From a virus, in IMG/VR virus record IMGVR_UViG_3300031715_000012, positions 1-42,482 of that record: 42,482 bases of DNA. One strand, written 5' to 3'. Each line of letters starts with the position of its first letter. Positions within the stretch are counted from its first letter, which is position 1. A program made the translations under genes and the position numbers. The notes under the pieces were generated by a model. That model was not told where the DNA came from. It saw only the letters and a program-made list of their open reading frames with translations, and ran no database searches. Below, piece after piece: positions 555-39,135 of this stretch.

Positions 555-1133
555 TTACGACCAGGTTGCGGTGATGGTGCCGACGACCTTGATGCCGCCA
601 GAGAACGTGATCGCCTTGTTGTACTCGGCGCCGAATTTGAAGTCGGAGACGTAGCCCTGGAAAACGAACGTCGAACCATCGGTCGTGGTCAGCTTCCAGT
701 AGTACAGAGCGGCGAGGCCTCCGGTTTCGAGGTTCGCGAGCAGGGCCTGGGTGGTGGGATCGGTGGGGTTCATCACGCCGTCGAAGGTGACGTCGCTGCC
801 ATCGACCAACGTTTTCATGTACTCCTTGAAGACGGCGCCGCTGATGTTCGGCGAATCGAGGTTGGTGATGTCGTCGAAGTCGGCCTTGAGGCCGCCGAAC
901 TTCACGTTCTTCAGCTGCGCGACGTTGGTGTAGCTGCTGCCGGCGGTGCCGCCCGAGGCCAGGTGCGAGCCATAGCCGGGGTAGGCGACGGTGGTGCCAA
1001 ACACGAACGGCGCCAGGGAGAAGATCCACAACAGGATCTTCAGGCCCTTCAGCGCCAGGGTGCCGGCAGTGAGAACGATGAGAACGGCCCCGAGAGGCGT
1101 GGCCGCGAAAACCGCGAGGGCAAGTGGGAACAT
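555..1133 (-). CDS. Tail tube paralogue with N-terminal membrane segments
   Basis: 192 residues. From about residue 50 it parallels the adjacent tail-tube protein: PGYGS then a TxVAQLK-type motif, then a DG-rich beta region ending in a hydrophobic strand. The first 46 residues are instead almost wholly hydrophobic (MFPLALAVFAATPLGAVLIV and a second segment LKGLKILLWIFSLAPFVFG), predicting two membrane helices. The start is well supported: AAAGGAG lies 8 nt before the ATG. A GTG at the VFGTT position would remove the helices but has no Shine-Dalgarno. A tube subunit anchored in a membrane is not expected, so the mature form could be processed. It may be a minor or alternative tube subunit. Confidence 0.75.
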   Translation of the reverse strand: MFPLALAVFAATPLGAVLIVLTAGTLALKGLKILLWIFSLAPFVFGTTVAYPGYGSHLASGGTAGSSYTNVAQLKNVKFGGLKADFDDITNLDSPNISGAVFKEYMKTLVDGSDVTFDGVMNPTDPTTQALLANLETGGLAALYYWKLTTTDGSTFVFQGYVSDFKFGAEYNKAITFSGGIKVVGTITATWS

Positions 1134-1166
1134 TGGAATTTCTCCTTTAAGCGAACTGGGAATTTT

Positions 1167-1598
1167 TCAGGCTGCGCCGGCGGGGCCGGTGAGAGCGCCC
1201 TGCACGCGGATCTTCGCGGTGAAGCCCATGGCCTTGGCGACATCGATCGAGAACGGCACGAACTCGCTGAGGAAGCCGCGCCAGGTCCAGACCGTGATGC
1301 CATCCGAAAGCAGCAGCTTCCACCAGGCGAGTGTCAGATTCGCGTGCACGGTGCCGAGCTCGAGCTGCGAACCATCGGCCGGGGAGAGCACGCCTTCGAG
1401 ATTGATCTCGCCGGAATCGAAGCGCGCGGCCAGCGGCGCCATGCTGTTGCCGGCGGTGAGAATGTTGGTCTGGTCGACCATGGTCTGCTTCGAGCCTTGC
1501 GGCAGGATCTTGCGCAGCTGCGCGACCGTGGTGTAAGTGGCACCATCGAGCGAGCAGCTCAGCTTCGAGCCGTAGCCGGGGACTGCAGTTGTCGTCAT
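1167..1598 (-). CDS. Major tail tube protein
   Basis: 143 residues beginning MTTTAVPGYGSKLS, with TTVAQLRKI near residues 23-31 and a C-terminal beta-rich half (DGITVWTWRGFLSEF). Size, start motif and position between the tail terminator and the chaperone G fit the lambda gpV/SPP1 gp17.1 class of tube-forming proteins that polymerise around the tape measure. It lacks a hydrophobic N-terminus, unlike its paralogue immediately downstream, so it is the better candidate for the main tube subunit. Two copies of CCTAAGG lie just upstream of its start (about 1602-1616). Confidence 0.75.
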   Translation of the reverse strand: MTTTAVPGYGSKLSCSLDGATYTTVAQLRKILPQGSKQTMVDQTNILTAGNSMAPLAARFDSGEINLEGVLSPADGSQLELGTVHANLTLAWWKLLLSDGITVWTWRGFLSEFVPFSIDVAKAMGFTAKIRVQGALTGPAGAA

Positions 1599-1610
1599 GA
1601 CCTAAGGTGC

Positions 1611-2084
1611 CTAAGGTTGCGCGAACGACCCCTGCTCGCTGTAGAACGCGCGCAGGCGCAACACGGAGCGGAAGACGTAGCCGCCGCCGCCGAGATCATA
1701 GGGGTCGTCGGCATCCATGCTCACCGAGTAGAACTGGATCGCGGTGCCATCGGCGAGCGTGGTGCCAAGATTCTTCAGCACATCGCGCACGGCCTGCGAG
1801 AGCCGCCGCGCCGTGACCTGGTCGTCGGCGTAGCTGTCGAACTGGAATTCGCCATCCATGGTGTCGCTGACGCCGTCGAGCGTCTCGCCGGCCGGCAGCG
1901 TCTCGACCAGATGCAACACGATGTAGGGCCGCGGCGCCTGCTTCTCCGCCAGCGAAAAGTAAACGCTGTACTGCGGCGTGGCCCCAACCGCCGGCAGCGG
2001 GGCGAGCAGCCCTTGCACGCTGCCCGCACCCCCGTTCTGGGTGAGAAAGTTAAACAGCCCTCCGCAAACAGCTCGCACGGCCAT
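1611..2084 (-). CDS. Tail terminator / tail completion protein (DUF3168-like)
   Basis: 157 residues from ATG 2084, 28 bp after the preceding fibre gene. The pattern MAVRAVCGGLFNFLTQNGG, then PYIVLHLVETLPAG, then DGEFQFDSYADDQVTARRLS and a late RSVLRLRAFY strand fits the DUF3168 tail completion family, which caps the tail tube and joins it to the head. Its neighbour downstream is the tube protein, as in other siphoviruses. The reading frame is open upstream into the fibre gene, but that part is a shadow. The family assignment is from recalled pattern. Confidence 0.75.
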   Translation of the reverse strand: MAVRAVCGGLFNFLTQNGGAGSVQGLLAPLPAVGATPQYSVYFSLAEKQAPRPYIVLHLVETLPAGETLDGVSDTMDGEFQFDSYADDQVTARRLSQAVRDVLKNLGTTLADGTAIQFYSVSMDADDPYDLGGGGYVFRSVLRLRAFYSEQGSFAQP

Positions 2085-2112
2085 GGGATTCAGTCGTTCG
2101 CTGGGCTGCGTT

Positions 2113-4857
2113 TCATTGCGGAATCTCGATGAACCAACCGGCCCCGCCCGGTCCGCCGTTCCCAGCCGTGCCCGTGGCTCCCGTGCCGCCGGCGCCGCCG
2201 CCCACGTTAAAGGTTGCTCCGTTGTCGGTGAGGTTCGGTGATCGAATGATGACGGCGCCGCCGCCGCCGCCGCCGCCGCCCCCAATGTTTGAGCCGCCCG
2301 CTCCGCCGTTCCCCCCGGTGACTGTGAAAATCGCCGTGTTCGAGAGAACGACAAAAGGCGCGTCCAGGATGATGACTCCGCCCCCGGTTCCAGCAGCTCC
2401 TCCGCTGCTGCCGCCCGCGCCGCCAGGCGCGCCGCCCGCCAGGTTTCCCTCTACTTCGCCAGGACCGAAGTCCAAAATTGAATTTTCGTAATATGAACTG
2501 GAACTCATGGCAGCGCCGGCGCTGCCGGCTGGAGTGCCGGAGGTGCCAGCCGCGCCGCCAGCGAGCACCGCTGCCACGCCGCCCTGGAAAAGGTTCTTGC
2601 TGGCCCCTCCGGCCGCGCCCGCGGCCGCGCCATAACCGCCGCCGCCGCCAGCTGCTCCTATGTCCCCTGACGCCACTGTATTCCCACTTGCCACGATAGT
2701 GCAGTAGGGGCCGATGGTGATTGTTCCGGTTGCGCGAATGATGTATGGTTTCCCGCTCGTGCTGTCGGTGAGCACCGTGGGCGTGCCGCTGGTGCCGCTG
2801 CAGCTGAAATTCCCGACGTAAAACACTCCTGGGGTTACCGTCGCGCTCGTCGTGTTCGTGCTCGTGCTGGTGCCGTTGCCGTAGTAGGCAAGCCATCCCG
2901 GCGGCAGCATCGTGACCTGCGCGGGATCGTTCGCATTCGCCTGAGAGTAAGGCTGAGACAGCACCGCTCCGGTGATCTTGCGGCCGCCCGATGAGCTCGT
3001 GCTGTTCAAAATGCACGGCGCGGTAGTGCTGCCCTGGCCAAAGGTGCCCGGGCACGGGTTGGCAACGTCAGTCACCACGTCGACATTGCTGAAACCGATT
3101 GTGGAGGTTCCCCGGTCGACGGTGTTTCCGTAGCTCGCAAAGGTGTCAAGGTATGCGATCTGGCAAGGAACCGAGCCGCATTGCGCCGGAGCGCCGCCAT
3201 TGTTGGCCGTCGAGATGCCGTGCAACGTGACCCCGTACGTTAGATTTTGTGGCCCCAGCCACACGCTTCTAGCCGTGTACTCGTTGTGCATCGGCGCCAC
3301 GTCGATGCGGCCGATTGCCTCGGCAACCAGATCGTTGTTTATCCAGGCGCTCGAAGTTCCAGTGCAGGTGCCGAGCTCCATTTGGCCATTGGGGCCGTCA
3401 GAAGCGTTCGAAGACGTCAGTGCGTAGGCCTCGTAAATGTGGCAGTCGGTTTCCCAATTCGTCATGCCGAATAGGGGGCCGGCCACGCTGCCCACCGGCG
3501 TGAAGGTCACGCCGCCGTTACCGGGACCGCAGTTCTGCAGGTGATAGCTGGCGTGGCCGAAGCCAACATTGAAATCGGCCGACTGAAAACTTTTGTCGGC
3601 AATCGTGCAGGCAGCCGCTGGGCCCTGATTCGCGGCTCTGGTGCCGGTCTGTTGCTGATTGTCGAAATTCACCCAGGCCTGAAGGTCAGTGGCCTCTTCG
3701 GTGTTCGTGGTGAAGATGCCGACAAAGCCGGCAACGCCTTCCCCGTCTAAGAAGATTTTCCCGATCTTGCCGCCCTGAGCCGTCTCGTAGCTTGAGCCGT
3801 TCGAGCCTGCGACCCAGAGCAGAGGAGTGATGTTGGGCTGGTAGATGACGTAGAAATACGAGGTCGAGGCAACCAGCCCGGTGAAGCCATTCAAGGGCAG
3901 ATTCAGTGTGAGCGTGTAGGTGGGCTCGGTCCCACTTTTTGCCAGAATCTGGGCAGAGTGGCAGGTTCCCGCGGATCCGCTTCGGCAGTTCGCCACCGTG
4001 GGCGAGGCGTTGGGCGCGAACACGATGTAGCCGCCAACCGTGAGCAGGTTGGCGCAGTTGGCGGTGCCGGTGTTGGTCTTGGTGACTCCGCGCCACGAAC
4101 TGGTGCACGAGCCGTTGGTGCCATCGGTCACGGCTGGAACCGTAATCTGGCTGGTCGCGAGAGAGCTCGGCGTGGTGAAGCTGCTGGCGATAAAGACCAG
4201 AGGTTCTTCACCGGAAGTGTTGGTGAAGGCCGTGGCTGCCGGGTAATTGTTGGGGCCGCATCCGCCAGAAGTAGCGCAAAACTCGAGCATCTCATTCGAG
4301 CCCGGCGCGGTTTTCTCGCCCTGGCCAGGTTCGTCGGCGTCAATGATGTCAGCCGGGCCCGTCGTCCACCCCACTGATGTGACGATCTCGATTCCTGGCG
4401 CCTTTTTGATTTTGTAGACGCAGCCCGTATTGGAGTGAGTGGCCCGGGCGTAGCCAATGGGATCGGTGTTGGCATAGTACTTCCCTGGGGCCAGACCTTC
4501 GAGCGTGACCCCGCCGGCGCCGATGCCTATGTTGCACTGCAAAGCAAGAATCTGGCCGATGACCAGGCCAATGTCGCTGCTCGCGCCCGCCCAGCCTGGG
4601 TAATCGACGACCCTCATATAGTCTGGGATGTTCACCGCCACGCCATTGCCCGGAGAGACGCTGCCCACCGAGCAGCTTTTGATTTGGCCATTGGCGGAGT
4701 TGTACCAGAGTCGACCGGCCGTGCAGGCGTTGGGATCGCTGGTTACGGTGACCGGCACCGGCGGCGAGCTGACGCTAGTGGCGCCGTTTCCGTTCTGGGC
4801 CGCGCACACGCACAAGCTGAGCAGCGCGGCCGCGACAACTGTTTTCAGGAATCGCAT
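2113..4857 (-). CDS. Large secreted tail fibre / adhesin with glycine-rich tip
   Basis: 914 residues. A clear Sec-type signal peptide opens the protein (MRFLKTVVAAALLSLCVCAA, then QNGNG), and GGAGA lies 9 nt before the ATG. Residues about 30-700 are low-charge, Thr/Ser/Gly/Asn-rich and beta-rich, with many Cys residues in pairs, as in extracellular beta-helical proteins. The C-terminal ~200 residues carry repeated Gly-rich blocks, including runs such as GGGGGYG and nine consecutive Gly residues, separated by short beta strands. This resembles the poly-glycine sandwich tip of gp38-type fibre adhesins (family knowledge, inferred here). It sits between head closure and tail terminator genes, an unusual place for fibres. 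Receptor binding is the likely role. Confidence 0.7.
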   Translation of the reverse strand: MRFLKTVVAAALLSLCVCAAQNGNGATSVSSPPVPVTVTSDPNACTAGRLWYNSANGQIKSCSVGSVSPGNGVAVNIPDYMRVVDYPGWAGASSDIGLVIGQILALQCNIGIGAGGVTLEGLAPGKYYANTDPIGYARATHSNTGCVYKIKKAPGIEIVTSVGWTTGPADIIDADEPGQGEKTAPGSNEMLEFCATSGGCGPNNYPAATAFTNTSGEEPLVFIASSFTTPSSLATSQITVPAVTDGTNGSCTSSWRGVTKTNTGTANCANLLTVGGYIVFAPNASPTVANCRSGSAGTCHSAQILAKSGTEPTYTLTLNLPLNGFTGLVASTSYFYVIYQPNITPLLWVAGSNGSSYETAQGGKIGKIFLDGEGVAGFVGIFTTNTEEATDLQAWVNFDNQQQTGTRAANQGPAAACTIADKSFQSADFNVGFGHASYHLQNCGPGNGGVTFTPVGSVAGPLFGMTNWETDCHIYEAYALTSSNASDGPNGQMELGTCTGTSSAWINNDLVAEAIGRIDVAPMHNEYTARSVWLGPQNLTYGVTLHGISTANNGGAPAQCGSVPCQIAYLDTFASYGNTVDRGTSTIGFSNVDVVTDVANPCPGTFGQGSTTAPCILNSTSSSGGRKITGAVLSQPYSQANANDPAQVTMLPPGWLAYYGNGTSTSTNTTSATVTPGVFYVGNFSCSGTSGTPTVLTDSTSGKPYIIRATGTITIGPYCTIVASGNTVASGDIGAAGGGGGYGAAAGAAGGASKNLFQGGVAAVLAGGAAGTSGTPAGSAGAAMSSSSYYENSILDFGPGEVEGNLAGGAPGGAGGSSGGAAGTGGGVIILDAPFVVLSNTAIFTVTGGNGGAGGSNIGGGGGGGGGAVIIRSPNLTDNGATFNVGGGAGGTGATGTAGNGGPGGAGWFIEIPQ

Positions 4858-4889
4858 GAGGATTGTCTCCTGGAAAAATCGAGGGCTAC

Positions 4890-6314
4890 CTAAGTGCCGG
4901 TGACGGCCACCGAGGCCCCAGTGCTGGCGGCGATCACATAGACCAGGTTCGTGTTCGAGAGACTCCAGCAGGCCGTCTGGCCAGGCTGCAGTGGAAAGCC
5001 CGTGGAAGTGGTGACGCCGGAGGGCCCCACGTAGATGTTGATCGTGTTCGCGGGCAGCGCGGTGACGCAGAAGGAATGCGCCGCGTTCGAACTGAGCGCG
5101 ACGGCCGACGCGGTCACCGCCTGCTGGAAGCCGATCAGCGTGCCAAAGCCGGTGGGCTGCGTGTTGACCGCCCCGATCGTATTGGCTCCCGCGGGCAACG
5201 CCGCACTTACATTCACCTTGAGGTTTGCGCTCGAGTCGAGCTGCAGAGGTTCTTGCTGGCCAGTCGACGGCGTGGGCGCGCTAGCGTTGTAAGTGCCGCC
5301 TGCAGCGACAGAATTGGCGGCCGCGGTGGCTCCGGCAGCGGCATCGACTGCCGCGCCGGCGTTGCCGAGCAGATCGACTTTGCCGACCGTATTCGCACCG
5401 GCGGGCAACGCGCCCACAATCGACGCGGGGGTGCTGGGCGCGAAAGCAACCGAGATGGTGCCGGCGCTGGGATAGGTTCCGCAGGTGTAGGTCGCGATCC
5501 ACGCATCGCCTGTGGGGTTGGTGGGGTTCACGGCGAACAGCTGGGTGGAATTGCCTGGGGTGAAGGTGATGGTGGCTTGCGCCGCGCTCGCCGGTGCGCC
5601 CGTGTTCGGCTGGTAGGCAAGAGCGATCTGGCACCCGGAAGGCGAGCCCGCGATGGATGCGCCGCTGATTTCGAGCGTGCCCGTGCCGGCGAAGTCGGGG
5701 ATCCTTACTGCTCCGCTCGTGGCTGTGGCAGTCGCCGACTGCGCGCTGAACAGCGTGGCAAAGAGGCTGAGCGCAACTCCGCCCATTTGCTGGATGTTGG
5801 TGTTCTGCGTGCTCGGGAAGTTGCTGACAGTGACGCTGCCGCCGCTGGTGCCGCCGCCCGCGGGGTTGTTGGTGTAGCCGAAGATGATGACCGTGACTAT
5901 GCCCGAACCGGTGATCGTGGGCGTGAGCTGCATGAAGTTTGTGGGTGACGTCGCGGTCGTGTTGGCATACGACCCAGCCGAGGTCATGGCTCCGATCGTC
6001 GCCGCAGCGATGACGCCGCCAGTGCTCCAGGATCCGCTAATACCGGTGGCGGAGGAGTCAAGCGAGAGCGTGGCACCCGTGACCGTGCCTGAGGGCACGA
6101 AGATCACCTGCCAGAAGGTCAGGCCGCTGACGCTGAAACCGCCCACGGGGCCGGAGGCGGAAGTGAAGTTGCACTTCTCGCCGAGCTGGAAGGCCGACTG
6201 ATTTGGCGTGATCTGGACGCAGGGAGGGGACTGGGCATTCCCGGCAGGCACCAGGCAGAGCAGAAAGAACGCGAGCAGTCCGATGATCGTTGGAGCATGG
6301 CGTTGCCGTCTCAT
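4890..6314 (-). CDS. Secreted fibre-like structural protein
   Basis: 474 residues from ATG 6314, which has GAGG 7 nt upstream; an earlier ATG at 6347 overlaps the previous stop as ATGA and would add 11 residues. The N-terminus is a signal peptide (IIGLLAFFLLCLVPAGNAQ). The body is poor in charge and rich in Thr, Ser, Ala and Gly, with several Cys. The last ~80 residues (a SSNAAHSF, NIYVGPSGVTTSTGF, LQPGQTACWSLSNTN, VYVIA series) match a module often seen at the end of phage structural proteins. There is an internal duplication of LPAGANT(V/I)G. The role is probably a fibre or decoration; the exact function is unknown. Confidence 0.65.
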   Translation of the reverse strand: MRRQRHAPTIIGLLAFFLLCLVPAGNAQSPPCVQITPNQSAFQLGEKCNFTSASGPVGGFSVSGLTFWQVIFVPSGTVTGATLSLDSSATGISGSWSTGGVIAAATIGAMTSAGSYANTTATSPTNFMQLTPTITGSGIVTVIIFGYTNNPAGGGTSGGSVTVSNFPSTQNTNIQQMGGVALSLFATLFSAQSATATATSGAVRIPDFAGTGTLEISGASIAGSPSGCQIALAYQPNTGAPASAAQATITFTPGNSTQLFAVNPTNPTGDAWIATYTCGTYPSAGTISVAFAPSTPASIVGALPAGANTVGKVDLLGNAGAAVDAAAGATAAANSVAAGGTYNASAPTPSTGQQEPLQLDSSANLKVNVSAALPAGANTIGAVNTQPTGFGTLIGFQQAVTASAVALSSNAAHSFCVTALPANTINIYVGPSGVTTSTGFPLQPGQTACWSLSNTNLVYVIAASTGASVAVTGT

Positions 6315-6343
6315 AGTTTGCCTCTTGTCGTGGAGAAGTGAAT

Positions 6344-7117
6344 TCATCGCAGTCCAGGGAAAACGCCCAGCTCGCGCAGCCTTACTCCTGCGTTGGGGCC
6401 GCTGTTATCGAGCATGGAGACCTCGTTCGAAAACGCGGCATTCGAGATGCCGCTGCCTGGCACCGCAGGGTAGATCTGCCCCATGTCGAGTGGGCCTGTG
6501 GTGGCCGTCACGGTGGGCGTTGAACTGAAGCCGGAGCCCGCAAAGCCTGAGCCACCGCCCGAGATATCCATCTGATCGCACGAATAGATCGAGTCCTGAT
6601 AAGCGGTGCCATTCCAGTTGGTGCAGGTGGGGAACACTGCTCCCGTGCCACCCCCGCCGGAGAAGACGAAGCCCGGCGAGTTTGCCCGGCCGGTGCTGAG
6701 TCCATAGTTGTAGCCGCTTCCACCGCTGGTGAGCGTCACGCTGGTTACGCAGTCGAGGGCTCCTGGGCACGCGTTGCTCGAACCGGCGGTGCCGATCGTG
6801 GCCGTGGCAGTGGCGGCCGTGGGCGCCGGCGCCCAGTCGGCCACGACGTAGTAATACGTGACGCCGGGCGTGACCGCGGTGTCGAGATAGCTGCAGCACG
6901 CAACGCCGGTGGCGATCTCGGCGTAGGGGCACGGGGTTACCGCCGGGGAGGTCCAGCCGCAGTTGCCGTTGCCCGAGGTTGTGCTGCGCCAGACGCTGTA
7001 ATTCTGGATGCCGCTGGTAGTCGATGCCGTCCAGGTGAGCTTGATGCCGTGCTGGGCCAGGGCCTGACAAGAGAGCAGAAACCCGAGAAGCGCGACCTGG
7101 ATTGCCCGGTTGCTCAT
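6344..7117 (-). CDS. Secreted fibronectin type III-containing structural protein
   Basis: 257 residues. Signal peptide MSNRAIQVALLGFLLSCQ followed by ALAQ. Residues about 23-90 form a fibronectin type III-like domain (HGIKLTWTAS, QNYSVWRS, YLDTAVTPGVTYYYVV) with six Cys residues, which suggests disulphides and an oxidising location. The rest is Gly/Ser/Thr-rich, with SGGSGY and SGGGSGF repeats. GGAG lies 8 nt before the ATG. Fn3 domains are common in tail proteins as surface-binding modules; a signal peptide on one is not. It is the first of three consecutive secreted genes. Confidence 0.65.
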   Translation of the reverse strand: MSNRAIQVALLGFLLSCQALAQHGIKLTWTASTTSGIQNYSVWRSTTSGNGNCGWTSPAVTPCPYAEIATGVACCSYLDTAVTPGVTYYYVVADWAPAPTAATATATIGTAGSSNACPGALDCVTSVTLTSGGSGYNYGLSTGRANSPGFVFSGGGGTGAVFPTCTNWNGTAYQDSIYSCDQMDISGGGSGFAGSGFSSTPTVTATTGPLDMGQIYPAVPGSGISNAAFSNEVSMLDNSGPNAGVRLRELGVFPGLR

Positions 7118-7513
7118 TCACGAGGCTCCGCCGGCGTTCGAGCCGATTTCGAAGCAGTAGATTTTTAGCTGCACCCGCAGCTCGTCGGGATCCTCGATGG
7201 CGGCGATCTGGAAGTTGCGCTCGCCGCCCGCGTCGAGGTACTGAATGGTCATGTTCTCCGCGGCTCCCTGAGCGTACTGAATCACCACCAGGTGGGTGAC
7301 GCGCTGCGCGATCTGCTGCGCCTTGTCGAGTTCGTCGCCGGCCAGGGCATAGAGCGCTGCCCAGCAGCTGAAGGCCGCCGACGGCGCGCCCATGCTGTTG
7401 TCGACGGGGCTGCGCACCGCCGGCGAGTAGAACGTGATCTGCCGGTTGAGCGCGCCCAGGGCCACGTATTGCCCTGGGCGCGGCAGCCCGGCGCTAAGAC
7501 GGCGGAGCGGCAT
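7118..7513 (-). CDS. Head closure protein (SPP1 gp16-like head-tail adaptor)
   Basis: 131 residues. The pattern LNRQITFYSPAV near residue 22, a central FSCWAALYALAGDELDKAQQ, VTHLVVIQYAQG, then an ERNFQIAAIEDPDE strand and LKIYCFE at the end fits the phage head-tail joining family (gp16/FII class), which closes the portal channel after packaging. The ATG overlaps the stop of the upstream gene (TGATG). It follows the connector by one gene, as expected for the neck module. Confidence 0.75.
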   Translation of the reverse strand: MPLRRLSAGLPRPGQYVALGALNRQITFYSPAVRSPVDNSMGAPSAAFSCWAALYALAGDELDKAQQIAQRVTHLVVIQYAQGAAENMTIQYLDAGGERNFQIAAIEDPDELRVQLKIYCFEIGSNAGGAS

Positions 7514-7965
7514 CAGTTGTACTGAACGACGGCAAACTTCATGGTGGCGGCGCTGCAGGCCAGCGCGATCGATGTGCCCGAGATCCAGCCCGTCTGATAT
7601 TTCATCTGCACGGCCGCGATGGCTCCGGCCGCGAGCGAGTAAGCCGTCAGCGAAGTGTCGCTGCGCCCGAAAGGATCGGGCACGCTGGTGACGGTGAAGG
7701 TGCCGGCGCTGCCCGCGGTGTTGTTCACGAGCAGGACCTCGCGGCCGGTGGAGACGAACGAATTGCCGTTCACGTTGTCGCAGGCAGTGAAGGCGACGAC
7801 CAGCTGGCCGGCGGTGACGGCGACGTTGTTCTGCACCAGCACGATCGTCGACAGCGCCGTCGGCGTGGCAAAAGCCGGCAGGGCGAACATGAGCAGCGCG
7901 GCCAGCACGCAGGTGGCTTTCTTCAGAAACGACGGGCTGCTGTAAACAGTTTGCTGTGTCTTCAT
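7513..7965 (-). CDS. Decoration-like structural protein with signal peptide
   Basis: 150 residues. The N-terminus is a textbook signal peptide (FLKKATCVLAALLMFALPAF, AxA cleavage site near residue 34), with GGAGAA 7 nt before the ATG. The mature part contains GNSFVSTGREVLLVNNT followed by PDPFGRSDTS and a late beta strand, a pattern seen in small phage head proteins encoded next to the connector. Thus a virion-type domain appears fused to an export signal. It may be exported to the envelope, or the N-terminus may act as a membrane anchor during assembly. No biochemical function is known. Confidence 0.65.
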   Translation of the reverse strand: MKTQQTVYSSPSFLKKATCVLAALLMFALPAFATPTALSTIVLVQNNVAVTAGQLVVAFTACDNVNGNSFVSTGREVLLVNNTAGSAGTFTVTSVPDPFGRSDTSLTAYSLAAGAIAAVQMKYQTGWISGTSIALACSAATMKFAVVQYN

Positions 7966-7987
7966 GGGTAAGTTCTCCTGGCGAAAG

Positions 7988-8881
7988 TTAGCCGCGGGTG
8001 GCGGCCTTGATTTGAATCTTCCAGCGATAGAGCAGGCGCATCAGAGTGGGCGACTCGGCGATCGAGCCGCTGAACGAAGTCTCGCGGTTGTAGTAGCCGT
8101 CGGAGATCAGTAGCCGCATGGCCTGGCGTAGCGTGGCCGGCACGGCTTTGCCGTTCGCGCCATAGCCCGCGATGAAGTGGATCTGCGCCGCGTTCGGAAC
8201 ATAGAGCACCGGCGGCCAGGTCTGGCCGGGCAGCGGAAAGATGCGCGGCGGCACCGAGTCGTAGTCGTAGACGAAATCGCCGGAGTCGGGTACCGGCCCC
8301 ATGCACGTCCAGGTCAGGCTGCCATCGGAAACGGTGTTACCAGAGATGACGGGCCAGGTGGGCTGCGTGGTGCCCGACATCGATGTCGAATCCTCATCGC
8401 CCTGGGCGACGGCCGTCACCACCTGCAGGTTGCCGTTCGGATCCTCGATCTGGTCGGTGAGGTTGTACTCGTTGAGCGGCTGCCAGTTGAACAGTGCCGG
8501 GTAGAGCGCCTGGATCTCGCCGGTGACGCTGTCGCTGTAGGTGATTTTGGTGATCGACTGCAGCGGCGCGCGCAGCAGTTTGATCATCTGGGAATAGTTC
8601 CACAGCGTGGTGGAGTACCGCGGCAGCGAATAGTAGCTGGGCGGGTAGGCCATCTGCGACATGACCGTGTCGACGAAGTAAGGAAAGGCATCGAGCGATT
8701 GCCGGTATCCCTTGTTCACCAGCGAGCGGCCGGTGAAGCCCTCGACGTATTCGCGCGCCGACTGGATCAGCTCCTGGATGAAGGCGTCGTCGTTCGACAC
8801 GTTCACCTTGAGATAGTTCTTCACGTCGGCGAGCGCGAGCGGCTCAGCGACCGGGGCGACTTCTTCGACGATGTAGGACAT
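7988..8881 (-). CDS. Head-tail connector protein (gp6/phiE125 gp8-like)
   Basis: 297 residues. The N-terminus (PLALADVKNYLKV, DDAFIQELIQSAREYVEGFTGR) and the C-terminus (PATLRQAMRLLISDGYYNRE) are the typical ends of the HK97 gp6-type connector that forms a ring beneath the portal. The family is usually near 100-200 residues; here an extra ~80-residue region lies at about 120-200. It contains SGTTQPTWPVISGNTV and DGSLTWTCMG, resembling a module also present in the central tail hub of this phage. It is a plausible surface-exposed insertion. Confidence 0.8.
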   Translation of the reverse strand: MSYIVEEVAPVAEPLALADVKNYLKVNVSNDDAFIQELIQSAREYVEGFTGRSLVNKGYRQSLDAFPYFVDTVMSQMAYPPSYYSLPRYSTTLWNYSQMIKLLRAPLQSITKITYSDSVTGEIQALYPALFNWQPLNEYNLTDQIEDPNGNLQVVTAVAQGDEDSTSMSGTTQPTWPVISGNTVSDGSLTWTCMGPVPDSGDFVYDYDSVPPRIFPLPGQTWPPVLYVPNAAQIHFIAGYGANGKAVPATLRQAMRLLISDGYYNRETSFSGSIAESPTLMRLLYRWKIQIKAATRG

Positions 8882-8915
8882 TGGAAAGGCGGCTTCGGGC
8901 TTCGGCTATCGGGCT

Positions 8916-9155
8916 TCAGCCGGCGCGCTTGCGCGAGAACATCGGCTTGCGCGATGGCGGCCCGACTGCCATCGATTCGATTCCGGCGGCGGCGGCTTTT
9001 CCGATGGGACCGGCATCGTCCACCAGTTCGCGCGGAAGTTTGATTGCCGGCTTCACTTCTTCGGCCGTGCCGCCGTTGATCATGGCTCGGGCGACGGCTG
9101 GGACCATGTCGGTGACCTGGCCGGTGGCGCGGATGCGAATTTTGATCATCCTCAT
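8916..9155 (-). CDS. Small head-module protein of unknown function
   Basis: 79 residues, basic N-terminus (MRMIKIRIRATGQVTDMVP) and a Lys/Arg C-terminus. Its ATG overlaps the stop of the previous gene (ATGA), so it is translationally coupled. Small proteins of this type between the capsid and connector genes are common in HK97-like phages and are often virion accessory proteins. Nothing more specific can be said. The 34 bp after it carry a repeated ggcttcggg-type heptamer sequence. Confidence 0.6.
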   Translation of the reverse strand: MRMIKIRIRATGQVTDMVPAVARAMINGGTAEEVKPAIKLPRELVDDAGPIGKAAAAGIESMAVGPPSRKPMFSRKRAG

Positions 9156-9400
9156 AGCGGGAACATCCTTTCGAACTCGGCGGCGAGCTCCTCTTCGGTG
9201 AGGGCAAAGGCCAGCTTGAACTGGCGATCGTCCTCGGGGCTACAGCGCCGTTTCCTGCGCGTGCCGGGCGGCTGGGCTGGCACGGGCGCGGCCGGACGAT
9301 AGAACTTTCCGCCCTCGGTCGGCGACAGCACCGCCTGGGCCACCTTCTGGCCGCCGCCCGCTTGCTTGACCGCCCGTAAGTGGTAGGAACGGTTGAACAT
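9152..9400 (-). CDS. Small basic head-module protein of unknown function
   Basis: 82 residues (MFNRSYHLRAVKQAGGGQ), Pro/Arg-rich in the middle and with an acidic, helical end (LTEEELAAEFERMFPL). It is unrecognised. It lies between the decoration-like gene and the connector, and a perfect 9-bp-arm inverted repeat ends 10 nt before its start codon. It is coupled to the next gene by ATGA. Confidence 0.5.
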   Translation of the reverse strand: MFNRSYHLRAVKQAGGGQKVAQAVLSPTEGGKFYRPAAPVPAQPPGTRRKRRCSPEDDRQFKLAFALTEEELAAEFERMFPL

Positions 9401-9410
9401 CGGACTAGCC

Positions 9411-9429
9411 CGTCAATTTGAAATTGACG
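9411..9429. repeat. Perfect 19-bp inverted repeat
   Basis: CGTCAATTTgAAATTGACG has 9-bp arms around one central base and is AT-rich in a GC-rich genome. It lies 10 nt upstream of the minus-strand ATG at 9400, in the 150-bp gap after the decoration-like gene. It could be a protein-binding operator or an RNA hairpin that terminates or processes the capsid transcript; no U-run follows, so a simple terminator is less likely. Confidence 0.8.
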
Positions 9430-9550
9430 AATTTACAGGGGCGGCGCCGCTCCCCGGATGCGCGGGAAAGCGAGGGGGTTTGGTCAGCCGCCCCTGCAGC
9501 CAGGCGCTGGGAGAGAGGCTCTAAGGCGATCTCCCCCGGCTGGCAAACAG

Positions 9551-10108
9551 CTAGCTGATGGTAACGCCGGACTGCTGCACCGGGATCCACTTGCCGTTCC
9601 GGGCCACCAGGGTGACGAAGCTTCCCTGTGTGCCGTTGAACGTGATCAGGTGGTGCGCCGGTGTGATCGAGTTCGCCGGCGCGGTCACGGTATGGGCGTG
9701 GCCGCTGTTGTCGACGATCGTGATCTCGAGGCCGTCGTTGCCGCCGGCCGATGGAGCGCCAGCCACCGGACCCGCCAGCGTAGTAGCATCCACGCCCGCG
9801 GTTTCGATGAAGCTGGTGCCGCAGATCGGCACGCTGGTGGTAGCCGACAGGCCAGGCGGCAGATTGAGCGAGCCCCCGCCACCGGTGATGACGTCAGTGG
9901 TGCCGGTGAGCACTTCGAACTGGAAGGGCAGGTTGCTGCTCTGCCCCACGACGGTGTCGTAGTCCGGAGAGCCGGCGCTGACCATGGGGCCGGGAGTTTG
10001 TGCGGTGATGAAGGTGCCGAGGGCACCGAGAGCGGCGAGCGCAGCCAGAACTTTCAGGACCGCGGCGCCGTGAAAGAACAGCAGGCAAACTAAAAGAATC
10101 GGGTTCAT
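9551..10108 (-). CDS. Head decoration-like protein with hydrophobic N-terminus
   Basis: 185 residues directly after the major capsid gene, the usual place of decoration proteins. Residues 1-36 (MNPILLVCLLFFHGAAVLKV then LAALAALGALGTFITA) form a signal peptide or membrane anchor. The remainder is a beta-rich domain containing DGLEITIVDNSGHAHTVTAP and an ARNGKWIPVQ end, a pattern common in phage surface proteins. GGAGA lies 6 nt before the ATG, so the hydrophobic start is real. Role inferred: capsid decoration or surface protein. Confidence 0.65.
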   Translation of the reverse strand: MNPILLVCLLFFHGAAVLKVLAALAALGALGTFITAQTPGPMVSAGSPDYDTVVGQSSNLPFQFEVLTGTTDVITGGGGSLNLPPGLSATTSVPICGTSFIETAGVDATTLAGPVAGAPSAGGNDGLEITIVDNSGHAHTVTAPANSITPAHHLITFNGTQGSFVTLVARNGKWIPVQQSGVTIS

Positions 10109-10197: not shown

Positions 10198-11796
10198 CTA
10201 GCTGGCTGCCTGCTGCAGGTAGCAGATGGGGTGCGTGCCGGCGTCGAGCAGCTGGCCGTCGGCGCGGCTGAAGCCGATGAGAGCCAGCTGGCCGTAATCG
10301 GCAAAGCGCTCGCGCAGGGTGATGATGCCGAGCTCTTTCACCCGGCGAATCACGTACTTGTCGAGCTGCCCGTACAGCACCGTGTTCTGGTTGGCGGCGG
10401 CGACGGCGGGCACCGGCGTCATGTCATTGTTGATGTAGAACGGATAGTCGTTCAGACGATCCGGCTCTCCGGAGGCCATGCTGGGCTTCCACAGCGGGCG
10501 CCCGTACTTGTCGAGCAGCACCTTGATGCGGCGCAGCGTCTGATCGTGGAACATGTACGCGGCCCCGCGGCGATACAGTGGATCGACGGTGTGCTCGAGG
10601 TTGTCGATATCCTGCGAGCCGATGGAGGTGCCGCCGGTTTCAGCGCCGCCGTCGTTGGTGGCGGCTCCGCTCGCGATCAGCGGGATGCCGTAGCCGTTAT
10701 TAGCGCCAGCCCAGGCCGTGGCCGAAGGCGCGCCGCAAGCGGCGATGACCGCGGTCACGATTCCGTTGGGCGCGTTGGTGCCGGTGCCGATGGTGAATTG
10801 CTGGTTGTAGATGCGGCCGATGCGGATGGCGAGCTTCTTTTTGAGATAGCTTTCCATGTCGAAGGCCGAATCCTGCATCAGTTCGAGGGACAGCTTCACC
10901 ATCTTTGAGCTGAACTTCCAGGCGCCGAACAGCACCTGGCCGAGGCTCACGTCTTTGTCCGAGACCTGCTGGCCTTCCCCGACGAGCTCACCCATGATGG
11001 TGGTGTCGTTGTCGGTGGGGTACGGCAGGGGCTGGCCGGTGGCCGTGTCCATGATCTCGGCGACGAGCAGCATGGGGCCGTAGTACTTCAGGGCCTCTTC
11101 GACGTCGTACACGAAGCCTTTGGGCACGAAGTAGCCGCCGAGCGAGAGCGTGCCGATGCCCATGTCGCGCTTTTCCTTGTCGCCGATCTCGGGGCCGCCG
11201 AGCAGGAAGCCGCGGAAGTCTTCGTGCCGACCGAAGACGATCTCGCGATCTTCGTTTTGGGCACGCGCGGGATCGCCGGTGGCGACGGCGCACATGTAGC
11301 GTTTGAAGGATTCGAAGAAGCGCCGGTTCAGGCTCTCGACGGTTTGCCGCACGTCGCTGTGCACGTGATCGAGCGCGAGGTTCTTGAATTGGAGCTGGCC
11401 TCCGCGCTTCGTCACCTGCACGCCATGGCGCCGCAGAGCAGCGTCATAGATCTGGATGTGCGTGGCGCGATCGGTGCCGGGGCGCCGGCTGGGATCGTCC
11501 TGGGGCAGCGTTCCGGAGTTGCCCAGTTCGCGGCTCAGGTTGCCGAGGCGCACTTCGCGCTCGTTGTCGGCAATGATTTCGTCGCGCTCGACGATCAGCG
11601 CGCAGATGGTATCTTTCGCGGGTTTGTCAACGGTGAAGCCTTCGCCGCCGAAATCCATCTTGTCGAATGCGGTGCGGGCCTCCTTCACTTGCTGCGGGGT
11701 GGAGTTTTTGTCGGCGATCTTGGTGCGGAACTCCTGGGCCTGCTGGTTCAGCTGCAGGAGCTGCTGGCGGATCGCGCTCAGTCGGGATTGAGACAT
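10198..11796 (-). CDS. Major capsid protein, HK97 fold
   Basis: 532 residues. An N-terminal ~110-residue, charged, helical region (LSAIRQQLLQLNQQAQEF) is a delta/scaffolding domain of the kind removed by the protease. The mature part has the family pattern: GTLSLGGYFVPKGF, LVAEIMDTATGQPLPYPT, FGAWKFSSKMVKLSLELM, LAIRIGRIYNQQFTIGTGTN and GAAYMFHDQTLRRIKVLLD, then a YGQLDKYVIRRV strand. The length exceeds HK97 gp5 (385) because of the long N-terminal region and a central ~150-residue stretch with Gly/Asn loops. GAGGAC lies 8 nt before the ATG. Confidence 0.93.
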   Translation of the reverse strand: MSQSRLSAIRQQLLQLNQQAQEFRTKIADKNSTPQQVKEARTAFDKMDFGGEGFTVDKPAKDTICALIVERDEIIADNEREVRLGNLSRELGNSGTLPQDDPSRRPGTDRATHIQIYDAALRRHGVQVTKRGGQLQFKNLALDHVHSDVRQTVESLNRRFFESFKRYMCAVATGDPARAQNEDREIVFGRHEDFRGFLLGGPEIGDKEKRDMGIGTLSLGGYFVPKGFVYDVEEALKYYGPMLLVAEIMDTATGQPLPYPTDNDTTIMGELVGEGQQVSDKDVSLGQVLFGAWKFSSKMVKLSLELMQDSAFDMESYLKKKLAIRIGRIYNQQFTIGTGTNAPNGIVTAVIAACGAPSATAWAGANNGYGIPLIASGAATNDGGAETGGTSIGSQDIDNLEHTVDPLYRRGAAYMFHDQTLRRIKVLLDKYGRPLWKPSMASGEPDRLNDYPFYINNDMTPVPAVAAANQNTVLYGQLDKYVIRRVKELGIITLRERFADYGQLALIGFSRADGQLLDAGTHPICYLQQAAS

Positions 11797-38440: not shown

Positions 38441-38469
38441 TTGACTCGCGGCCCCACCGGTGGCATCAT
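38441..38469 (+). promoter_or_regulatory. Plus-strand promoter for the moron pair
   Basis: TTGACT, 17-bp spacer with CGCGGCCCCACC (one change from the operator-like site), then CATCAT, 11 nt before the ATG at 38481. It is closer to a standard sigma-70 -35 box than the other four promoters. Confidence 0.5.
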
Positions 38470-38480
38470 GCTGCCGATTG

Positions 38481-38930
38481 ATGAACACCGTGGTCATCGC
38501 CGTTGCCGTCGTGGTGCTCGCTGGATCTGCAATCCCTCAGAGTGCGCCGGCTCATCCGATCGTCTTCATCGAGGGCAACGGAAGCGAACCGGAAGCGGCT
38601 CACGAGACGCAGCACGTGCGCCGCGACGATCAGACGATGGAGCTGGCTCGTCACCTTCTGAAGGCGTGCCCGGAGATCTCGATCACGCGGAAGGAAGACG
38701 CCGATATCGACTACTCGCTGCTGTTGAATCGCGGCGACGAGTACGGCATTTTCAAGAATGCGGTGAGCCAGGTGATGCTGCTCGATCGCGATAAGAACGT
38801 GCTCTATTCGAACAAAGAGGGAACCGTCTCTCGAGCCGCGAAAGATGGCTGCAGGGCGATCCTCGAGGACTGGAAGAAGCGGCGGCCGGCGCGAACTGCC
38901 GAGCCGCTGTGGAACAAACAGAATCAGTGA
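38481..38930 (+). CDS. Secreted host-like periplasmic protein (moron)
   Basis: 149 residues from ATG 38481. Signal peptide MNTVVIAVAVVVLAGSAIP. The mature part contains ELARHLLKACPEISITRKED, ADIDYSLLL, VMLLDRDKNVLYSNKEG and a Cys in KDGCRAIL, a pattern I associate with small periplasmic proteins of soil bacteria including acidobacteria. Its strand and promoter are opposite to the tail operon around it, which suggests a lysogenic-conversion cargo gene. Function unknown. Confidence 0.65.
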   Translation: MNTVVIAVAVVVLAGSAIPQSAPAHPIVFIEGNGSEPEAAHETQHVRRDDQTMELARHLLKACPEISITRKEDADIDYSLLLNRGDEYGIFKNAVSQVMLLDRDKNVLYSNKEGTVSRAAKDGCRAILEDWKKRRPARTAEPLWNKQNQ

Positions 38931-38943
38931 GTGAGGTGAACCC

Positions 38944-39135
38944 ATGGCAACAAAAGCCGACTCCGTAATATTCGAGGGATCGACGCGGCCCGTGACTTTG
39001 CCGACGACCTTCGATCCGGCGACGCAGGTCTCAGCGGATGCGAAGTACATCGTGAAGCAACTCGTGCTCTGGTTTCTGGGGCTTCCCCTGGTGCTCACGC
39101 TCGGGGCCTGGGCAATTTATAACGCGACTCACTAA
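38944..39135 (+). CDS. Small membrane protein (moron operon)
   Basis: 63 residues; GAGGTG is 6 nt upstream, 13 bp after the secreted protein. One membrane helix near the C-terminus (LVLWFLGLPLVLTLGAWAIY). Its stop overlaps the convergent tape measure stop by 4 bp. It likely acts with the secreted protein at the host envelope. Confidence 0.65.
   Translation: MATKADSVIFEGSTRPVTLPTTFDPATQVSADAKYIVKQLVLWFLGLPLVLTLGAWAIYNATH

Follow-up and report, generated by a model that had tools for sequence, protein, structure and literature searches.

The window analyzed here is the whole of a 42,482-base viral record (IMGVR_UViG_3300031715_000012; GC content, about 64%), and its head-tail module holds six genes whose products start with a hydrophobic segment. 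We found that these N-termini are of two kinds. Four genes encode proteins with signal peptides of the classical Sec type, and among relatives signal peptides and disulfide cysteines come and go together, which suggests that these proteins are truly exported. The other two encode a protein adjacent to the major capsid gene and a second tail tube protein, Tub2, which carry a different pair of leaders that are related to each other. As judged from sequence comparison with relatives, the leaders are translated, selected, and optional among orthologues, and cysteine pairs follow export or swap in two of the four Sec-type proteins. The six genes and their leaders are listed below, with a slash at the end of each hydrophobic leader (aa, amino acids).

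9551 to 10108, minus strand: 185-aa protein directly after the major capsid gene; a leader (residues 1 to 31) and a beta domain that may resemble tailspike, T4 gp9-gp10, and capsid-spike modules
10016 to 10108, minus strand: leader of the 185-aa protein, ending ...LG/TFITAQ, compared with that of locus L002 below
7513 to 7965, minus strand: 150-aa protein between the head-tail adaptor and head-closure genes; Sec signal peptide and beta sandwich with a conserved cysteine pair
7867 to 7965, minus strand: signal peptide MKTQQ...FALPAFA of the 150-aa protein, with a predicted signal peptidase I site at its end
6344 to 7117, minus strand: 257-aa protein; signal peptide MSNRAIQVALLGFLLSCQALA; 9 cysteines; Fn3-like by eye
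4890 to 6314, minus strand: 474-aa protein; signal peptide MRRQRHAPTIIGLLAFFLLCLVPAGNA; N-domain with swapping cysteine pairs and a C-module related to a Gordonia phage virion-module protein
2113 to 4857, minus strand: 914-aa protein; signal peptide MRFLKTVVAAALLSLCVCA; 22 cysteines; glycine-rich C-terminal third; fibre-like by composition only
555 to 1133, minus strand: Tub2, second tail tube protein of the lambda gpV type (PF16461, 32.3 bits against a cut-off of 26.1; phrog_158, E = 1.1e-17; lambda gpV profile, E = 0.005)
996 to 1133, minus strand: hydrophobic leader of Tub2, 46 residues, ending ...VFG/TTVAYPG, delimited by leader comparison across relatives

Each of the six open reading frames has a hydrophobic segment within its first 40 residues (maximum 15-residue Kyte-Doolittle mean, 1.9 to 2.8), as a preliminary description of this DNA had claimed. 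Four annotated siphophages, chosen from cultured phages that matched the capsid or tube protein, served as controls; comparable N-termini were found on 3 of their 71 virion-module genes and on none between terminase and tape measure. In the window, the 13 genes that run from capsid protein to second tail tube include six with such N-termini, five of them above the control cut-off and that of the 257-aa gene just under it (1.89). The signal-peptide-like starts proposed earlier are, by rule, of the classical Sec type in the genes at 7965-7513, 7117-6344, 6314-4890, and 4857-2113, which have a K/R-led n-region, a hydrophobic core, and the small residues at -3 and -1 (AXA-type ends) expected for signal peptidase I. 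The N-termini at 10108-9551 and 1133-555, without a charged n-region or a consistent AXA site, are not usual signal peptides. One further case had been missed: the gpJ-like tail hub (34980-32866, minus strand) begins with about 55 mostly hydrophobic residues.

Homologues were gathered from viral contigs, and start codons were assessed in three families (tube, 185-aa, and 150-aa). A Shine-Dalgarno match of at least 5 nucleotides precedes the leader start in 69 of the 72 leader-bearing genes, compared with 6% of all ATGs, a result somewhat favored by the method because starts were picked partly by Shine-Dalgarno score. The stronger half of this evidence is that none of the 113 in-frame start codons near the junction of leader and mature part has such a match. 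Strong ribosome-binding sites precede the hydrophobic N-terminus in all six window genes, and the earlier argument that Shine-Dalgarno sites directly before these starts speak against mis-calling holds across relatives. The reading frame is kept in all leader-bearing genes. Leaders evolve faster than mature parts, yet nonsynonymous differences per site (pN) lie well below synonymous ones (pS) in the closest pairs: 0.106 versus 0.37 for the window and L002 (on the window side, the 185-aa leader), 0.099 versus 0.32 for L041 and L005, and 0.119 versus 0.35 for L034 and L035. About 1% of random in-frame stretches from the same loci match the hydrophobicity of the least hydrophobic leader, and the absence of D, E, R, N, and Q seen in leaders is rare in random frames. 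Taken at the level of sequence, the leaders are almost certainly real.

Among relatives of the 150-aa protein, both conserved cysteines are present in all 35 full-length orthologues that have a signal peptide and in none of the 13 leaderless relatives (Fisher, 5e-11, a value that overstates independence because strong branch support exists for a single contrast). In the close leaderless relatives (L033, L050, L087, L090, L092, and L093), the pair is replaced by M or S and by T or S, and the family tree requires six changes for the signal peptide and six for the cysteine pair. L104, a very distant relative, lacks a signal peptide and has two cysteines, the second of them at a different position. 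Cleavage at the predicted site after AFA would yield AQT, SQT, or TPT, the same as or near the leaderless N-termini (MAQT and MSQT) minus their Met, and the leaderless L033 orthologue holds the same place between the adaptor and head-closure genes. AlphaFold2 predicted the mature protein to be a confident beta sandwich (predicted local distance difference test [pLDDT], 92). The best matches to this fold in a viral library were mainly uncharacterized Caudoviricetes proteins, and a PDB search returned weak beta-sandwich matches and nothing stronger; the leaderless relatives match phrog_16194, "tail protein" (E = 1.6e-5). Two loci (L100:5229-6345 and L107:463-1556) each carry three leaderless relatives in tandem.

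The 474-aa protein (listed as 485 aa, with an upstream ATG at 6347 that lacks a good Shine-Dalgarno site) has cysteine pairs in two domains. Its N-domain carries pair A in 15 of 20 sequences and pair B in the other 5, window included, with no mixed cases; the upstream cysteine of pair B, read by eye in the printed upstream residues, is present in L054, L064, L069, L121, and the window. Every copy of the C-module found within this phage group carries two cysteines; its leaderless homologues in Gordonia phages Vivi2 and Bakery have none, and one Gordonia phage homologue lies in the structural block, between the major tail protein and the adaptor. Cysteines are thus gained and lost as pairs and together with export, as expected for proteins that fold in an oxidizing compartment. 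In three domains, belonging to two proteins, the pairs accompany the signal peptide or are exchanged as units. Such behavior is expected of disulfides formed outside the cytoplasm, and the Sec-type proteins are very probably exported.

The many cysteines reported earlier for three proteins were counted as 9, 7, and 22 in the 257-aa protein, the 474-aa protein (in its 485-aa form), and the 914-aa protein. The indications of export for the 257- and 914-aa proteins are their signal peptides and high cysteine counts. Their provisional labels, Fn3 and fibre, drew no significant family match in profile searches, and the 914-aa protein found no relative when used as a query against viral contigs; the composition of its glycine-rich C-terminal third (2113-3000, minus strand) recalls polyglycine-type adhesin tips. 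Relatives carry variable sets of signal-peptide proteins between the head-closure and terminator genes, and some have additional ones between capsid and adaptor. In L003:12611-15229, L008:12564-16475, and L015:12274-16209, a cassette between the capsid-adjacent genes and the adaptor encodes two signal-peptide proteins, one of 180 aa (PHROG 5417) and the other large.

Tub2 scores above the curated PF16461 cut-off and is a tube protein of the lambda type. AlphaFold2 modeled the 185-aa protein with moderate confidence (pLDDT, 77) as a helix at residues 3 to 30 and a beta domain that aligns over about 90 residues with phage tailspike, connector, and spike chains (VIA Z, 9.7 to 6.4; Foldseek E = 6e-4), and the model may resemble a phage spike or connector domain. 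A search for relatives in cultured phages found none for the 185- and 150-aa proteins and one, weak, for Tub2. In both the tube and 185-aa families the leader spans 30 to 60 residues and runs from a hydrophobic stretch through a His/Lys turn to a second hydrophobic stretch and a conserved Phe-Gly/Thr junction. About a quarter of its residues are Ala (24 to 26%), with 21 to 26% Leu and 6 to 12% Gly; Asp and Glu are absent from the close set, His or Lys lies near the middle, and no K or R occurs within the first 10 residues. A profile of the tube leaders recognizes the 185-aa leaders, and vice versa, above shuffled sequence and even without the junction, and His occurs at leader positions 9 to 16 in 12 of 16 and 11 of 13 members of the two families, versus 4.8 and 2.6 expected. 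No other open reading frame matched the leader profile in the fetched loci up to L107; a single leader common to all exported genes was rejected on this basis, as the profile finds two genes only. The relatedness may reflect common origin or common constraint.

These leaders are optional. Some tube and 185-aa orthologues start, with their own Shine-Dalgarno site, exactly at the mature part: leaderless M-TTIAYPG or M-TTTAYPG versus leader-bearing FG-TTIAYPG in the tube, and M-TQITAQ versus FG-TFITAQ or FG-TTITAQ in the 185-aa family. Elsewhere the leader stands upstream of an intact Met (LFG-MATTAFP in L130; KF-MTQITA in L006 and L007). Quick trees require three changes of leader state for the tube and six for the 185-aa family, counts that are rough because L129, which has a true leader, and L006, which has a different one, were entered as leaderless. 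On contigs where both states are readable, tube leaders occur, by our reading, only alongside 185-aa leaders, and no leader was found on Tub1, the tube paralogue, in relatives. The sole tube-family protein found in the records of L032 (39.9 kb) and L006 (40.0 kb) bears a leader, so a leader probably does not prevent tail building; for the same reason, display on the lysogen surface, one of three roles floated in the preliminary description, is disfavored for the tail tube. The loci in which no Tub1 was found (L032, L006, and L039) have the longest Tub2 leaders (56 to 60 residues), with an extra hydrophobic stretch. The N-terminal loops of lambda gpV lie at ring contacts (PMC10721106), and since the lumen must also hold the tape measure, removal of the leader is likelier than its retention; cleavage of both the Tub2 and 185-aa leaders is, on balance, our expectation.

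The rest of the window agrees with a siphophage: an HK97-type terminase, portal, protease, and capsid, a gp6-like adaptor, a head-closure protein, a tail terminator, two lambda-type tube proteins, a tape measure, a gpJ-like hub, and an endolysin. The record is probably permuted and nearly complete, because its tail genes appear to leave the low end and resume at the high end. Tub2 sits between the tail terminator and a tail assembly chaperone, assigned from its position and a weak phrog_2115 match. The following neighbors have no leader.

10198 to 11796, minus strand: major capsid protein (PF05065)
7988 to 8881, minus strand: gp6-like head-tail adaptor (PF05135)
7118 to 7513, minus strand: head-closure protein (PF05521)
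1611 to 2081, minus strand: tail terminator (phrog_347)
1167 to 1598, minus strand: Tub1, tail tube paralogue (phrog_158, E = 4e-10)

Two small, moron-like genes on the opposite strand (38460-38930 and 38944-39135, plus strand) lie between the tape measure and tail-tip genes, and one of them has a signal-peptide-like start. By eye, the products of 27390-26290 and 29101-28244 (minus strand) look like tyrosine recombinases. A scan of genome contigs with the capsid alignment, in search of a host, yielded a single weak 52-residue match in one Flavobacteriales metagenome-assembled genome.

We propose a model with one route for each kind of N-terminus. The four Sec-type proteins would be exported and cut by signal peptidase, and their disulfides would form in the oxidizing periplasm. 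There they would wait until lysis mixes cytoplasm and periplasm, then attach, as decoration proteins and fibres, to the outer surface of completed particles. Binding to finished capsids in vitro is known for decoration proteins. The hairpin-like leader would target the spike-like capsid-adjacent protein and the tail tube to the inner membrane, and it would probably be removed at Phe-Gly/Thr before or during assembly, leaving the same N-terminus as in leaderless relatives. The parts of this model that we infer are cleavage, oxidation in the periplasm, virion membership, the timing of attachment, and membrane topology. Export and coating of phage after lysis, as suggested earlier, fits the Sec-type proteins best; for the tube and the 185-aa protein, whose leaders are a separate, related pair, the best reading is membrane-assisted assembly, the third role floated. 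We give the complete two-route account an even chance. That the exported proteins are virion parts is somewhat favored, and the 257- and 914-aa proteins may have non-virion roles. A more ambitious form is tentative and, in our estimate, improbable: a transferable membrane leader, placed on tail tube and capsid spike, would take these core virion proteins into or across the inner membrane ahead of assembly, a membrane or periplasmic morphogenesis in which Sec-exported decoration proteins with disulfide bonds would join at lysis.

Several points weigh against the two-route model. The N-termini were called by a simple hydropathy rule and not by SignalP, and none of the four Sec-type proteins significantly matches a characterized virion family. 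The single signal-peptide/cysteine contrast on strongly supported branches leaves the count of independent events uncertain. The L006 record ends inside its tube gene. For the Tub2 and 185-aa leaders, which have neither a charged n-region nor a consistent AXA site, route and processing are guesses.

One alternative would have the leaders act mainly to tether tube and spike proteins to the inner membrane for assembly there, being removed or kept until release. Related leaders on exactly two virion-module genes, the central Lys or His with no D or E, the 28-residue helix predicted by AlphaFold2, and the finding of no tube protein other than the leader-bearing one in L032 and L006 all speak for it. 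Positive-inside reasoning, however, places the mature domain outside, no protease for leader removal was identified, many orthologues manage without a leader, and an uncut leader should disturb ring stacking at the gpV-type loops; we consider this unlikely. Rather doubtful, too, is that the exported proteins are cell-surface or periplasmic products (superinfection exclusion, lysogenic conversion, or envelope adhesins) inserted in a structural operon. Their signal peptides, the variable cassette between the head-closure and terminator genes, and the large proteins without a family match suit this explanation; it leaves the tail tube unexplained, and the 150-aa gene stays between adaptor and head-closure genes even as the leaderless L033 orthologue, while the C-module has a relative in a Gordonia phage structural block. 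An enveloped or lipid-associated tailed virion, in which uncut spike and tube leaders anchor a membrane with disulfide-bonded exported proteins outside it, would make sense of membrane-type leaders on both candidates for a repeated surface and of the exported cysteine-rich proteins in the same module; it is very improbable, as no C-terminal anchors were noticed on the exported proteins, leaderless relatives carry the same genes, and we know of no precedent among tailed phages. Finally, mis-called starts, with the hydrophobic stretches untranslated or in separate small open reading frames, are hardly credible and were rejected: leaderless orthologues exist and an in-frame GTG occurs at the Tub2 junction in the window, but the Shine-Dalgarno sites, the conserved frame, the low pN inside leaders, and the covariation of cysteines with the signal peptide all contradict them.

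The usual view is that every virion protein of a tailed phage is assembled in the reducing cytoplasm. Prior export and oxidation of structural proteins, if real, would add an unrecognized periplasmic step to particle building; disulfides could then occur in virions, and phage morphogenesis would include the secretion machinery. Because orthologues with and without a leader occur in nature, the question can be put to a direct test. In the literature searched, outside of which lie many subscription papers, we found no description of a tailed-phage tube or decoration protein with a signal peptide or membrane leader.

Known systems share parts of this arrangement. Mature Tub2 belongs to the lambda gpV family (PF16461, PHROG 158) and lies, like it, between terminator and tail-chaperone genes; it differs in having a 46-residue hydrophobic leader in place of the initiator Met and an adjoining leaderless paralogue. 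Decoration and capsid-spike proteins (the Pa223 capsid spike, the TSP4 anchor domain, and T4 gp9/gp10) have a beta domain that may be similar to that of the 185-aa protein, whose gene is next to that of the capsid; the 185-aa protein bears a membrane-type leader, and its trimerization and capsid binding are putative. Hydrophobic N-termini on tail proteins also occur in the gpJ/megatron hubs of roseophage R4C and RcGTA, as in the window at 34980-32866, and for the iris/penetration region of the R4C megatron an ability to form transmembrane helices has been described (PMC10276861). Those are described as membrane-penetration domains of the hub, whereas the tube and spike leaders here are separate and optional. 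Signal-arrest-release (SAR) leaders of lysis proteins, which are weakly hydrophobic, Ala/Gly-rich N-terminal segments on phage proteins, may offer a parallel in composition; here, the leaders are on structural-module genes, are related between two genes, and share the FG/T junction. Filamentous phage coats (M13 pVIII and pIII) are exported by signal peptides, and pIII acquires disulfides in the periplasm before assembly, much as we propose for the Sec-type proteins. An inovirus-type exported coat, expected without icosahedral capsid or tail genes, does not fit the window, which is that of a tailed double-stranded DNA phage with an HK97-type capsid, portal, terminase, and tape measure. Since filamentous phages export their coats, the principle of coat export is known; the new element is the use of a leader on the tube and spike of a tailed phage.

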